Below, one piece after another: positions 54,070-64,000 of a stretch of 64,000 nt of DNA. Position 1 is the stretch's first letter. The number at the start of each line of letters is the position of its first letter. The notes under the pieces were generated by a model. The model did not search any database. It had not been told where the DNA came from and was given only the letters and a program-made list of their open reading frames with translations. Source of the DNA: Bryobacterales bacterium (GTDB taxonomy: Bacteria; Acidobacteriota; Terriglobia; Bryobacterales; Bryobacteraceae). A program made the position numbers and the translations under genes. Location: NCBI GenBank assembly GCA_020851555.1, contig JADZCM010000015.1:1-64000 (forward strand), read 5' to 3'.

Positions 54070-55266
54070 ATGGCTGGCCGTGAACGGAAAGACAATCCCC
54101 TCCAGCCGGGCAGGAAACGACGCGGAACTCAGTGCGTCCTTCCGGCGATAGCCGCTGCCATGCTGCTGGCGGGCGCCACACGGCCGCCCGAGATCGCGTT
54201 CAGTGTCCGCGCCCTCGACCTGGGCGCCAATGAGGCGTGCGCTTTCGCCGACATCAACCGCGACGGGCGGCTCGACGTCGTTTCCGGCGAGAACTGGTAC
54301 GAAGCCCCGGCCTGGGGCAAACACCGTTTCCGGGAACTGGGGTTCACCAACAACTACATCGACAATTTCAGCGACCTCCCGCTGGACGTGGACGGCGACG
54401 GCTATACGGACATCGTCAGCGTCACCTGGTTTGCGCGGAAGATCAGTTGGTGGCGGAACCCCGGTAAGGCCGGCGGCATGTGGAAGGAAGCTACGGTGGA
54501 CTCCGGCGCGTCCATCGAGTTTGCCATTCTGGCCGATCTGGACAACGACGGAAGCGCCCGGGAAGTCCTGCCGCAGCCGGCCGGCGGATCGCTGGCGTGG
54601 TACGAAGCCGCCGCGGGCCGCTGGGTGAAGCACGTGGTGAGTCCTAAGGTCTACGGCCACGGCATTGGCGCGGGCGACGTCAACGGCGACGGCCGCACGG
54701 ACATTCTCACGCCGCAGGGCTGGCTGGAGGCGCCCCCCGATCCGCGCAGCGGCCAGTGGCCCTTCCACCCGGACTGGAATGAGAAGGATCTTGGTTTCAT
54801 GTACGTGGCCGACATCAATGGCGACGGACGGAACGATATTGTCACCAGCTACGCCCACGACTACGGGATTTTCTGGATGGAGCAGGGTGAAGGCGGCAAG
54901 TGGACCAAGCGGCAGATTGACGCTTCCTGGTCGCAGGCGCATGCCTTGACCCTGGCCGACCTGAATGGGGACGGCCGCCTTGACATCCTCACGGGAAAAC
55001 GATACATGGCGCACAACGGGGCGGATCCCGGAGAGCGGGAACCGCTCGGCATATACTGGTACGAATCGTTCCGCGAACCCGGCGGGGCAGTTGGCTGGGT
55101 CCGTCACGTCATCGAATACGGCGGGCGCATCGGCGGCGGAATGCAGATGCCGGCAGCCGACCTGGACGGAGATGGAGATATGGACTTCGCCTGCGCCGGC
55201 AAGAGCGGGCTGTTCTTGTTTGAGAACCTCACCCATAAGCGCCCCGCGGGAGGCGGGTCCAAATAA
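54070..55266 (+). CDS. FG-GAP/VCBS-repeat exported protein
   Basis: 398 residues. A membrane segment near 30-40 (VLPAIAAAMLLAGA) serves as signal anchor or signal peptide after a basic start. The rest is a beta-propeller with calcium-binding-type repeats. The Asp-x-Asp-x-Asp-Gly pattern recurs in FADINRDGRLDVVSGENWYE, PLDVDGDGYTDIVSVTW, AGDVNGDGRTDILTP, VADINGDGRNDIVTS, LADLNGDGRLDILTGKRYM and PAADLDGDGDMDFACAGKSG. Probably extracytoplasmic and ligand-binding. First gene of the run, 19 bases before the cupin gene. Such propellers commonly accompany Gfo/Idh/MocA clusters. Confidence 0.88.
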   Translation: MAGRERKDNPLQPGRKRRGTQCVLPAIAAAMLLAGATRPPEIAFSVRALDLGANEACAFADINRDGRLDVVSGENWYEAPAWGKHRFRELGFTNNYIDNFSDLPLDVDGDGYTDIVSVTWFARKISWWRNPGKAGGMWKEATVDSGASIEFAILADLDNDGSAREVLPQPAGGSLAWYEAAAGRWVKHVVSPKVYGHGIGAGDVNGDGRTDILTPQGWLEAPPDPRSGQWPFHPDWNEKDLGFMYVADINGDGRNDIVTSYAHDYGIFWMEQGEGGKWTKRQIDASWSQAHALTLADLNGDGRLDILTGKRYMAHNGADPGEREPLGIYWYESFREPGGAVGWVRHVIEYGGRIGGGMQMPAADLDGDGDMDFACAGKSGLFLFENLTHKRPAGGGSK

Positions 55267-55285
55267 TCAAAGGAGGAGGAAGAAT

Positions 55286-56500
55286 ATGAGCAACGTTTCC
55301 ATTATCAAAGACGCGCTGAGCGCCGGCGATGGCGTGGTCCGCCTGGCGCCGTGCTGGGTCCCCCGGTCGTTCCTCATGCCAGGCGGGCGTCTGAAACTGG
55401 ACCCCCGCGACTTGTATGCGCTGGGAGCGCACCGCGGGGGCATCGACGAACGGTGGTTCGCCTCCACGACCAACGCCGACAACGGCCCCGGCACGCCGCC
55501 CGACGAGGGGCTGAGCTACATCGCCCTCAACGGCAAACGCGTGCTTTTCAAAGAGGCCATCGAGACGCTGGGGGACGAGTTCCTGGGCAGCGACGTCATG
55601 GCGAAGTACGGCGGCTGGAACCTGCTGTGCAAGTTCTTCGACAACCTCGGGCCCATCCCTCACCACATGCACCAGATGGATGAGCATGCCGCCAAGGTCG
55701 GACAGAAGGGCAAGCCGGAGGCTTACTACTTCCCGCCGCAGTACAACTTCACGGGCAACAACTTCCCTCACACCTACATGGGACTTGAGCCGGGCACGAC
55801 CAAGGACGACGTCCGGCGCTGCCTGGAACGCTGGAACCAGGGCGACAACGGCATCCTGGATCACGCCAGGGCCTACCGGCTGATCCCCGGCTCCGGCTGG
55901 CAGATCGACGCGGGCGTCCTGCACGCGCCGGGTTCCCTGGTCACCTACGAGCCGCAGGTGAACTCGGACGTCTTCGGGATGTTCCAGTCCATGGTGGAGA
56001 ACCGGCCCGTGCCGTGGGACCTCCTGGTAAAGGACGTGCCTCCGGAGCACCACAAGGACCTGGACTACATCATCGGCATGCTGGACTGGGCGAAGAACGT
56101 CGATCCCGAGTTCGGCAAACACAACAAGGTGTTCCCCAGGCCGGTGAAGCCGCAGGATGAGATGACGGCGGCGGGTTACAGCGAAGTATGGGTCACTTAC
56201 GGCAGGCCGTGGTACTCGGCGAAGGAACTTACGGTGCATCCGGGCCGGTCCGTCACAGTTTCGGATTCCGCCGCTTACGGCGTGATCCTGACCCAGGGCC
56301 GCGGCGCGCTGGGTAAAGTGGACGTCGAGACCCCCAGCCTGATCCGCTTCGGCGAGATGACCAAGGACGAGGTGTTCGTGACCGCCGCGGCGGCCAAGGC
56401 CGGCCTCCGGGTCACCAATACCAGCGACAAGGAAAACCTCGTGATGTTGAAGCATTTCGGCCCGGGCAATCCGGATGCGGCGGCGCTGGTCGCAAACTGA
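55286..56500 (+). CDS. cupin-type sugar isomerase-like protein (class I mannose-6-phosphate isomerase fold)
   Basis: 404 residues from ATG 55286, with AGGAGGAGG 7 bases upstream; longer forms run into the preceding gene. The metal-binding cupin motif is [18 protein letters not shown] (about 117-134). It is followed by [20 protein letters not shown] and [20 protein letters not shown]. This pattern is like the Zn-binding centre of class I phosphomannose isomerases, but the enzyme may act on another sugar. No signal peptide, so it is cytoplasmic. It is 11 bases upstream of the Gfo/Idh/MocA gene 56512-57675. Probably isomerises a keto- or aldo-sugar in the pathway. Confidence 0.82.
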
Positions 56501-56511
56501 GGGAGGAAGAC

Positions 56512-57675
56512 ATGGCAGCCAAGACACTGGGAGTTGGACTCATCGGGTGCGGCTTCATGGGCCGCACGCACTCGAACGCCTACCGGCGATTGAACAACTT
56601 TTTTCCGGTTCAGCACCGGCCGGTTCTGAAGGTCATCTGCGACACGGTCCCCGAGAAGGCGCGGCAGTTCATGGAGGTGTGGGGTTACGAACGCGCTGAA
56701 ACCGACTGGCGCAAGTTGATGGACGCCAAAGACATCGACCTGATCGATATCTGCGTCCCCAACTTCGCGCACCGCGAGATCGCGGTTGCCGCCGCGCGGG
56801 CGGGGAAGATGGTGATCTGCGAGAAGCCTTTGGCCATGAACGCGGCCGAGGGCGAGGAGATGGTGCGGGCGGTGGAGGAGGCCAAGGTGCCGAACCTGAT
56901 CTCCTTCAATTACCGCCGCGTCCCGTCCATCTCGCTCGCCAAACAGATCGTCGACGAGGGGCGCGTAGGAAAACCCTTCCACTACCGGGCGACCTACTTG
57001 CAGGACTGGACCATCTCGGCCGACGTCCCGCAGGGCGGCGATGCGCTGTGGCGCCTGGACATCAAGGCCGCCGGCAGCGGAGTCACCGGCGACCTGCTGG
57101 CCCACTCCATCGACACCGCCATGTGGCTCAACGGTCCCATCCGGCGGGTGGTGGCCAGGACCGAGACCTTCGTCAAGGAACGCAAGCACGTCGTCTCCGG
57201 CAAGGTCGAGCCGGTGGGTATCGATGACGCCTGCATGTTTCTGGCGGAGTTCGCCAACGGCTCCCTGGGCACCTTCGAATCCACGCGCTACGCCCGCGGG
57301 AGGAAGAACTTCAACACTTTCGAGCTGAACGGCGCGGACGGCAGCATTTACTTTGATCTGGAAGAGCCGGAGTATCTCCAATTCTTCGAGTACAAGCAGC
57401 AGCAGAGCGGCAGGAAGGTGGAGTCCCACTTGACCGGCTGGCGCAAGATCCATGTTACTAACTCGGAGCACCCTTACATGGACCGCTACTGGGTTCCCGG
57501 AACGTGCATCGGGTACGAGCACACCTTCCTGAACCAGCTTGCGGACTTCGTGGCCGGGATCGAGAGCGGCACGCCGGCGCAGCCGGACTTCCGCAGCGGG
57601 CTCCAGACCCAGAAGGTCTGTGACGCGGTGCTGGAAAGCGCCCGCGGCGGCCGCTGGATGGAGGTGGCGCCATGA
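56512..57675 (+). CDS. cytoplasmic Gfo/Idh/MocA oxidoreductase
   Basis: 387 residues, no signal peptide. The nucleotide-binding motif is [20 protein letters not shown] (about 6-25). The EKP signature is [17 protein letters not shown] (about 100-116), and the second Rossmann block contains [15 protein letters not shown]. The C-terminal domain shows [40 protein letters not shown] (substrate-pocket His), and ends [18 protein letters not shown]. Similar to inositol- or scyllo-inositol-type dehydrogenases, so it oxidises a sugar or cyclitol. The stop overlaps the TIM-barrel gene start (ATGA), indicating co-translation. Confidence 0.93.
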
Positions 57676-58715
57676 CCCCGCACAAGTACCCCGCGCTGCA
57701 CAACGCCATGTGGCCGGGGCTGGTAGGAAAGGGCCCGGACTCCGAGCCGCCCATCGGCCTGGACACCATGTTGGACCTGACGGCTGCCGCGCAGGTGGAC
57801 GGCGTGAGGTTCGAGGGTGTCGACCTGTTCCTCTCGCTCCCGCACACGGACATTGACTCCTCCGATGACGATCTCAAGGCCCTGGCCGACAAGCTGGCAT
57901 CGAAGAACCTGTGCGCCGGCTCGCTGGTGGCGCCGGTGTGGGCGGGGACCGGAGGCGGTTCCGCCATGGGGAGCGAGCCGGAGCGCGCGGCGTTTCTCAC
58001 TCAGGTGCGGAAAGCCTGCCGCATCGGGCGCAAACTGCGCGATCTCAAGATCCGGCAGTACGGCGTCATCCGCATCGACTCGGCTTCAAGCGTGGAGGAG
58101 TGGGCCAAGGACCCGGAGGAGAACACGCGGCGCATCGCGCAGACCTTCCGTGAAGCGTGCGGCATTGCCGAGGACCACGGGGAGCGCCTCGCCGCCGAAG
58201 GAGAAATCTGCTGGGGCGGCATGCACAGTTGGCGGCGGAACGTGCAGTTGCTGGAAATGGTGGGACGCCCCCAGACCCTGGGCTTCCAGGCGGACATGGC
58301 TCACGTGATGCTCTTCACCATGGGCTACAACGCGCCCGAGGACAGGTTGCTCCCGGAGGGCTTCGACTGGAGCAGGACAGACCAACTGGCCGAGGCGTAC
58401 CGTAAGGTCGCCGGCGCCCTGCGCCCCTGGACCATCGACCTGCACATCGCCCAGAACGACGGCACGGTTAAGGGGGCGGGGTCCCACGACAAGACGGGTA
58501 AGCACTGCCAGCCGGACGATCCCCACGGGCGTCTCGACGTGGTGCGCGACGCCGGAGCCTGGATGCGGGGCGACGACGGCCAGCCCACCCGGGCCTTCGC
58601 ACACATCTGCTGGGATGGCTGTATGTTCCCAAACGAGGTGCTGCTCGGCCAGCAGATCTGGAACCGGATCCTGGCGGTCATGATCGCCGTCCGCAACGCC
58701 CACGGCTGGGATTAG
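57672..58715 (+). CDS. TIM-barrel sugar isomerase/epimerase-like protein
   Basis: 347 residues, no signal peptide. It belongs to the xylose-isomerase-like TIM-barrel superfamily. [20 protein letters not shown] is strand 1-2. [20 protein letters not shown] carries a Glu/His site, and [20 protein letters not shown] holds an Asp-x-x-His pair typical of the metal centre. [20 protein letters not shown] holds further candidate ligands. The family includes epimerases, isomerases and dehydratases acting on keto-sugars. It is coupled by a 4-base overlap to the upstream dehydrogenase, so both probably work on the same substrate. It converges with the DUF362 gene, 30 bases apart. Confidence 0.85.
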
Positions 58716-62925: not shown

Positions 62926-63243
62926 TCAGAAATTCTCCCAGGATTTTCGGACCTCCCAGCCGAGGGTCAGTCCCAACTTGAGGCTGCGGGGAGGCTCTGG
63001 CGGTGGACTGAAGGCGCCGGTAGGGAGAACTCGCCGGATGCCGTCGGCTGGCGCGCAGAACCGGAACGGCGACATATCGAAGAATCGCTGGGAGTTAATC
63101 AGCAGCCTCTCGCAGAGGATGCGCGGCTTCCTCTGCTGTCCCAGGAATCTCAACACACGCACGGCATGGCCATCATGACCACCGAGGCGGGCAGGGAAGG
63201 GCAGGCGAACCGGCGAGGCATGGAGACCAAAATTGGACGCCAA
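62926..63243 (-). CDS. doubtful hypothetical frame
   Basis: 105 codons giving a basic, Phe/Arg/Pro-rich product (RVLRFLGQQRKPRILCERLL; RSLKLGLTLGWEVRKSWENF). No family, weak ribosome-binding context, and its first codons lie in the direct repeat at 63233-63255. It could be the 3' remnant of an element gene. Otherwise the 480 bases from 62828 to 63310 hold only the repeats listed. Confidence 0.2.
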   Translation of the reverse strand: MASNFGLHASPVRLPFPARLGGHDGHAVRVLRFLGQQRKPRILCERLLINSQRFFDMSPFRFCAPADGIRRVLPTGAFSPPPEPPRSLKLGLTLGWEVRKSWENF

Positions 63244-63255
63244 ACCGCCACCAAA
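63233..63255 (+). repeat. direct repeat, left copy (22/23 identical to 63421-63443)
   Basis: TTGGACGCCAAACCGCCACC plus AAA. It differs from the right copy at one base (C to G at position 13). The two copies, 188 bases apart, bracket the tRNA-Pro fragment. They may be arm-type or core sites of an integrated element, or the result of a repeated insertion. Confidence 0.6.
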
Positions 63256-63310
63256 CGGACTCCGGTGGGGATGTTGGGGTTGATCGAGGCCTGTAAGTAT
63301 TTGAAACGTT

Positions 63311-63360
63311 TGGTCGGGCCGCCGGGATTTGAACCCGGGACCTCTTGCACCCCAAGCAAG
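63311..63360 (-). other. 3' half of a tRNA-Pro(GGG) gene, attachment-site-like
   Basis: The minus strand shows the anticodon arm CTTGC-TTGGGGT-GCAAG (anticodon GGG), variable loop AGGTC, T arm CCGGG-TTCAAAT-CCCGG, acceptor strand CGGCCCG, discriminator A and encoded CCA, all perfectly paired. The 5' half (acceptor, D arm) is missing: upstream sequence reads GATGCTTGTAAGTGATTGAT, which is not tRNA. This is the classic trace of an integrative element that targets the 3' half of a tRNA gene. The intact tRNA gene must be elsewhere. Confidence 0.85.
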
Positions 63361-63420
63361 GCAGAATCAATCACTTACAAGCATCGTATACTGAAAACAC
63401 AAGAGTTACGCGCGATGAAT

Positions 63421-63443
63421 TTGGACGCCAAAGCGCCACCAAA
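63421..63443 (+). repeat. direct repeat, right copy
   Basis: TTGGACGCCAAAGCGCCACC plus AAA; one mismatch to the left copy at 63233-63255. Between this copy and the gene at 63807 about 360 bases show no gene, only fragments of open frame. Confidence 0.6.
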
Positions 63444-63771
63444 AGCGATTTCCTGGAGTTTTAGACTCCTGACCGACTCCAACGCCAGCCCCCGCGATTG
63501 TGGAATCACACGTGCCTCGCGCGCACGCGCGCGGTCGACCACCGCGCCGCTCCGAGCGAACGCGTTGCCTTTGCCGCCTGGAGAGGCGTGACGGCGGGCA
63601 AATGGAGAGGTCGAAGGGAAGTCGCCGAGAGACGTATGGGAAGTCATTCAGAATGAGATGCTTCGGGTTCTCATGCGGCCGAAGGGAGTAAAGCTGGCAC
63701 GTTGGTGGGCAGCAAAGGCCTCCTGGGTGAAGCATGCCGCAAAAAGGCATTTCAACGGAGACTGCTGGGTG

Positions 63772-63777
63772 TATAAT
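63772..63777 (+). promoter_or_regulatory. -10 consensus box of the right-edge gene
   Basis: TATAAT, with TTTCAA about 16 bases upstream as a possible -35 box, stands 29 bases before the TTG at 63807. AGGAG follows at a good distance from the start codon. Confidence 0.5.
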
Positions 63778-63806
63778 CGATACCGCCCAGGATTCAGGAG
63801 ACGAAA

Positions 63807-64000
63807 TTGCTGCCGCAACAGCGAGAGGCACACGTTTGTCGTGCTGGCGGCGAGGAGTCGAACACGAAGGTCCTAGGTCAAGGGCTGATTGACCACATCG
63901 CGCCGCGTTTCGCCCGCGTGCGCTCCGTTCGAGAACTCCGCGAATACCCATGTGGATTTCTTGGTGACCTAAAGTACACGGCTATGGATGCTGCAGATTC
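63807..64000 (+). CDS. unidentified gene, 5' part only
   Basis: Begins at TTG 63807 with AGGAG 7-8 bases upstream and a TATAAT box behind it, and stays open to the window end (64 codons). The visible protein starts LLPQQREAHVCRAGGEESNT and continues GLIDHIAPRFARVRSVRELR and EYPCGFLGDLKYTAMD. The codon composition is less GC-rich than in neighbouring genes. I do not recognise a family. It lies just inside the tRNA-Pro half, on the side expected for an integrated element, so cargo or mobility function is a guess. Confidence 0.5.
   Translation, partial: MLPQQREAHVCRAGGEESNTKVLGQGLIDHIAPRFARVRSVRELREYPCGFLGDLKYTAMDAAD

Follow-up and report, generated by a model that had tools for sequence, protein, structure and literature searches.

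A displaced tRNA-Pro(GGG) half as the probable attachment end of an integrase-less element in a Bryobacterales genome

A 50-bp 3' half of a tRNA-Pro(GGG) gene lies near the right edge of the 64,000-nucleotide stretch of DNA analysed here (the window, bases 1-64000 of the 163,014-bp contig C15 of genome G000, a 3.69-Mb assembly that is 92.7% complete). The half is very probably the attR of an integrative element, 5,686 bp long when measured core to core, that occupies the anticodon loop of the tRNA gene, is flanked by att sites, lacks an integrase, and apparently stands in tandem to an older element, a reading that supports the proposal of an earlier note that the half marks the edge of an integrated element. 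Both att ends are present in direct orientation with conserved arms, the tRNA gene is intact, and the element contains no integrase. We infer that the crossover fell in the anticodon loop and was made by the integrase family linked to this site in relatives; the exact pre-insertion sequence is a reconstruction, there being no same-genus empty site for comparison.

The displaced half and the element it bounds

On the minus strand, positions 63311-63360 (CTTGCTTGGGGTGCAAGAGGTCCCGGGTTCAAATCCCGGCGGCCCGACCA) match exactly the 3' half of tRNA-Pro(GGG), from the anticodon stem to CCA, with no 5' half, just as the earlier note had described them. ARAGORN calls no tRNA gene in the window, and Rfam returns only a partial tRNA match at these positions that is below threshold (20 bits, cutoff 29). 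Once chance-level genome matches (E > 0.7) are discarded, just two copies of the half remain: the displaced one, and another within the intact tRNA-Pro(GGG), whose minus-strand gene spans C15:68997-69074. For this reason the half is not ascribed to chance. Both copies are held in a direct repeat of 216 bp with 84% identity (63145-63360 versus 68832-69046), which breaks off at the 5' edge of the anticodon stem and, in the other direction, continues 166 bp past the 3' end of the tRNA. The half and the intact copy differ at two positions over the 52 bp compared, which amount to one swapped T-stem base pair; the displaced half carries the family consensus pair and the intact gene the swapped one (CCGGGG...CCCCG), a form absent from every other tRNA-Pro copy examined. 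A spurious ORF in the window (63166-63591), antisense to the tRNA half, encodes LVGPPGFEPGTSCTPSK; the products of such ORFs are a type of sequence often mis-annotated as protein.

63311-63360, minus strand: displaced 3' half of tRNA-Pro(GGG), attR; sole partner the intact gene at C15:68997-69074
63361-64000, strand not applicable: in-window part of the element, which extends to that intact tRNA; no integrase or remnant
63988-64000, plus strand: first codons of the 1427-aa cargo gene

The intact tRNA gene, which has the same ending and was found 5.6 kb rightward of the half where the earlier note had advised looking, adjoins atpC and atpD on its own right. Homologs of both genes likewise adjoin tRNA-Pro in G015, G026 and G034, which represent three further genera, and this indicates that the tRNA side is chromosomal and hence that the element sits between the intact tRNA and the displaced half. 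The placement of the element to the right of the half is thereby confirmed, as is the lower GC content reported there (58.0% in the element, 65-66% in the flanks). A single large ORF (C15:63988-68271, 1427 aa), the nearest intact gene rightward of the half and almost all of it beyond the window, makes up the recognisable cargo. Its domains are a PGAP1/lipase-like hydrolase and TIGR03437 ('Solibacter C-terminal'), with Ig-like repeats (by eye and by repeat comparison) and a likely signal peptide (by eye), and the product is thus likely to be a secreted, hydrolase-like protein. Comparison of this protein with other tRNA-Pro elements gave just three weak partial matches, elsewhere in the order, and the family search of the element's other ORFs that were tested gave none.

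The attachment site and its probable integrase family

The distal, or P-side, attachment end adjoins the half on its right and has the following parts.

63361-63482, minus strand: distal (P-side) attachment end, kept in 26 distinct junctions, counting that of G000 and those of its relatives
63365-63379, minus strand: highly conserved core-flanking motif TGTAAGTGATTGATT, an exact match
63390-63405, minus strand: conserved P-side spacer motif CTCTTGTGTTTTCAGT, family form TAAGTCTTTTGTTTTCAGT, from junction comparison with relatives
63421-63443, minus strand: P-side inner pair of arm-type repeats TTTGGTGGCGCTTTGGCGTCCAA, units 11 bp apart, with 0 expected by chance
63463-63481, minus strand: more diverged P-side outer arm-type repeats TGGAGTCGGTCAGGAGTCT, from junction comparison

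Even with three mismatches allowed, only 0.16 matches to the TGTAAGTGATTGATT motif are expected in the window, and its TGTAAGT is inverted relative to an ACTTACA across the tRNA half. The junction is laid out as a 13-bp motif, placed 21-22 bp ahead of the anticodon loop, with arm repeats at a spacing of about 11 bp and the flanking TGTAAGT inverted repeat. Relatives belonging to different genera show one order of sequences ahead of the displaced tRNA-Pro half: arm-type repeats (TGGAGTCC, TGGCGTCC and AGGTCC forms), then TAAGTCTTTTGTTTTCAGT, then TGTAAGTGATTGAT. On the opposite side of the junction the tRNA is followed by CTCAAAGACTTACAG and further arm repeats, which are 11 bp apart in G000. 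Both ends of the element carry predicted arm-type and core-type sites in common with relatives; an intact tRNA closes one end and the displaced 3' fragment the other, in direct orientation, the arrangement by which tRNA-targeting elements are recognised. The distance from the start of GTAAGT to CTTGGGG is fixed at 21 bp in the relatives and is 22 bp in G000; because of this extra spacer base, and because the outer arms have diverged, the G000 site may no longer be functional.

Of 257 genomes of the order, 24 contain an exact match to the junction pattern and none matches a reversed control pattern; among about 85,000 catalogued prokaryote genomes the search yielded 19 loci, all of them in genomes titled as Acidobacteriota-type MAGs. 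Judged by sequence, then, the attachment site is common to other Bryobacteraceae-like Acidobacteriota. A search of a viral contig collection with the junction gave no matches.

On the left of the half, which the earlier note by implication assigned to the host, the DNA is more than simple chromosome: it opens with the tRNA-proximal end of a further element belonging to the same family.

63145-63310, minus strand: P'-side (tRNA-proximal) end of an older, second element, immediately adjoining the half on its 3' side; an 84% repeat of C15:68832-68997
63233-63264, minus strand: arm-type repeats of the older P' end, CGGAGTCC, TGGTGGCG and TGGCGTCC, at 11-bp spacing, from repeat comparison

These arm repeats match those of the G000 element and of G026 and G032, and P' ends with arms spaced by 11 bp are found on both sides. 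The segment at 63145-63310 would be the remainder expected when a second element inserts at an already occupied tRNA, and the insertions are accordingly read as tandem from this P' end, the window to the left of the half showing no second distal junction that would be the older element's far end. Conservation of gene order between the left flank and the region downstream of tRNA-Pro in G015 was also looked for, and there was none. A three-gene block at 54965-58715 (including, as judged by eye, a Gfo/Idh-type oxidoreductase and a TIM-barrel-like protein) has homologs of 55-68% in G232 (L162), 5-8 kb 3' of a tRNA-Pro half. The block may be cargo of an older element, although its rearranged order in G232 means that these homologs are not taken as proof.

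No integrase or remnant of one was found in the element, and none of the cognate family was found across the G000 genome, so that the expectation of a tyrosine recombinase to the right of the half failed; as the assembly is 92.7% complete, an integrase elsewhere in the genome could be missing from it. The tyrosine recombinases of G000 number four. Two are Xer-like; the others adjoin tRNA-Ser(GCT) and tRNA-Leu(TAA) (G000:C41:135854-136360 and G000:C22:146573-147070, respectively) and suggest that G000 probably carries other tRNA-targeted elements.

In relatives, the cognate family, a tyrosine integrase of about 440 aa, is present in 27 of 257 genomes, with identities to the query of 65-96% among its closest members. 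In eight of the 24 site-bearing genomes (G002, G010, G011, G032, G139, G183, G218 and G232) its gene shares the strand of the junction and lies 1.3-9 kb to the 5' side of it; in G218 it is a fragment at a contig edge. Site and integrase co-occur (Fisher p = 0.006, and 0.0002 for the closest members), values that are indicative only because the genomes are related. The tRNA-Pro contig of G012 encodes a portal, a head maturation protease, a helicase and an exonuclease along with an integrase of the cognate family, which suggests a temperate phage, with its distal junction absent from the assembly. In G139, a UvrD-like helicase beside the cognate integrase (L167:6-2369) gives a weak Pfam match, under the cutoff, to an intein splicing domain. 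An integrase on G026:C95, 3' of the tRNA half, is unrelated to the cognate family and was set aside as belonging to another type of element.

Taken in order, the proposed events would begin with a Bryobacteraceae tyrosine integrase of the tRNA-Pro family recombining a circular attP with the tRNA gene, which would thereby gain a new 3' half while the old half was displaced by 5.6 kb. The insertion would have occurred in front of the older element, the tRNA-proximal end of which would remain at 63145-63310. Because the element has cargo and no recombinase, either the integrase would have been supplied in trans for integration and excision, for instance by a related prophage, or the element's own integrase would have been lost after integration.

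Possible decay or mobilisation in trans

These two histories are sub-cases of the favoured reading and are given equal weight. The first, which we put at a little under even chances, is that a full tRNA-Pro prophage inserted at this site and was then reduced, through deletion of its integrase and structural genes, to the att sites and one accessory gene. It fits with the presence of the cognate integrase on the G012 contig beside phage portal and head-protease genes, and with a 13.8-kb element in G133/G064 that holds just a 51-aa C-terminal remnant of the integrase, from which it follows that decay does occur in the family. However, the ORFs of the G000 element have no phage-family matches, and thus none of the recognisable genes or fragments by which a prophage remnant is identified. 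Both att ends and the 1427-aa ORF are moreover intact, so that decay would have required a neat internal deletion.

The second possibility, of the same standing, is that the element belongs to a class of cassettes or phage satellites that normally lack an integrase and are moved by that of a tRNA-Pro prophage. No cognate integrase is recognisable in the assemblies of most of the site-bearing genomes (16 of 24, with the G218 fragment counted as an integrase), and att-bounded units of 0.8-8.4 kb with cargo and no cognate integrase are found in G027, G019, G077 and G137, some of them in tandem. The bounded units that lie on one contig and lack an intact cognate integrase are those of G000 (5.7 kb), G027 (2.6 kb) and G019 (1.1 kb), two tandem units in G077 (3.1 and 3.9 kb) preceded by 8.4 kb with atypical ends, two in G137 (0.8 and 3.1 kb), and the 13.8-kb unit of G133/G064; we take G077, G137 and G133 to be the same genomes as G069, G065 and G064, since contig positions match. 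This list is biased, however, because short units assemble more easily on one contig; neither a packaging signal nor a circular form has come to light, and the viral collection gave no match.

Copying of a piece of the tRNA locus by chance or by ordinary duplication might be suggested by the 166 bp of repeat beyond the tRNA, but this is highly improbable, since the repeat is bounded on its 5' side by the anticodon stem, the sequence beyond that boundary is an attachment end common to other genera, and the 166-bp extension is itself a conserved element end. The cross-genus junctions already contradict it.

Relation to known systems and to other units

Islands of tyrosine integrases in tRNA genes, as Williams reportedly described in 2002, involve a crossover in the anticodon loop, a displaced 3' half, and arm-type repeats. 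The G000 element resembles them in its displaced half, its arm-type repeats and its presumed anticodon-loop site, and differs in having no integrase. Among phage satellites, tycheposons use tRNA genes, and an integrase of their own is usual in named satellites such as PICIs. Satellites and hitchers, the latter dependent on the integrase of another element, have been reviewed together (PMC11389934), and the likeness lies in their being small, cargo-bearing elements in need of a helper, a need that is putative for the G000 element; unlike satellites, its ORFs include no packaging or satellite gene. CIMEs (cis-mobilizable elements), in which genes for integration and transfer are lost or lacking and att sites are kept at both ends, undergo tandem accretion, described for ICEs (PMC5704250). 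Like them, the G000 element keeps both att sites without integration genes, and it may stand in tandem at one target gene, given the P' end at 63145-63310, for which the window shows no far end. CIMEs, however, derive from ICEs or IMEs, whereas the integrase family linked to the present site accompanies phage structural genes in one relative; the proteins scanned, which covered part of the relatives' genes, included no conjugation genes. CALINs, which are arrays of integron cassettes (PMC11389934), are also tandem units with recombination sites and a missing integrase, but have attC sites in place of a tRNA anticodon loop and arm-type repeats, and the units here reach kilobases in length.

The element is thus best read as an integrase-less, CIME-like or satellite-like member of a tRNA-Pro prophage family, a proven member of neither class, and as a stranded or hitch-hiking passenger that is not self-mobile. 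As a type it is ordinary, an island that is flanked by att sites and has no recombinase of its own; its wider interest lies in the specific and conserved site of attachment, together with the integrase that probably acts there, in a soil phylum that has been little studied. A search of the available literature on tRNA-Pro elements in Acidobacteria found none, and one account reports a Bryobacterales provirus group (PMC11924767). The docking sites described here probably belong to a family of viruses of soil bacteria.

Cargo in the other units includes a candidate defence protein recognised by PADLOC in G027 and a DUF5615 toxin-like gene in G137. It is conceivable, if doubtful, that in Bryobacteraceae whole arrays of cargo units without integrases dock at tRNA-Pro(GGG), some of the units bearing candidate genes for defence or toxin-antitoxin systems. 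Such units would share with a prophage family its attachment site, would depend on its integrase in trans for movement, and would form a tRNA-anchored counterpart of integrase-less integron cassettes. If units do move in trans, phages would spread cargo, candidate defence genes included, by way of a single tRNA gene. As a separate observation, the first (8.4-kb) unit of the G069/G077 array contains ThiF and ThiF/JAB-like genes (L158:3114-5948) that match E1-E2 defence models.
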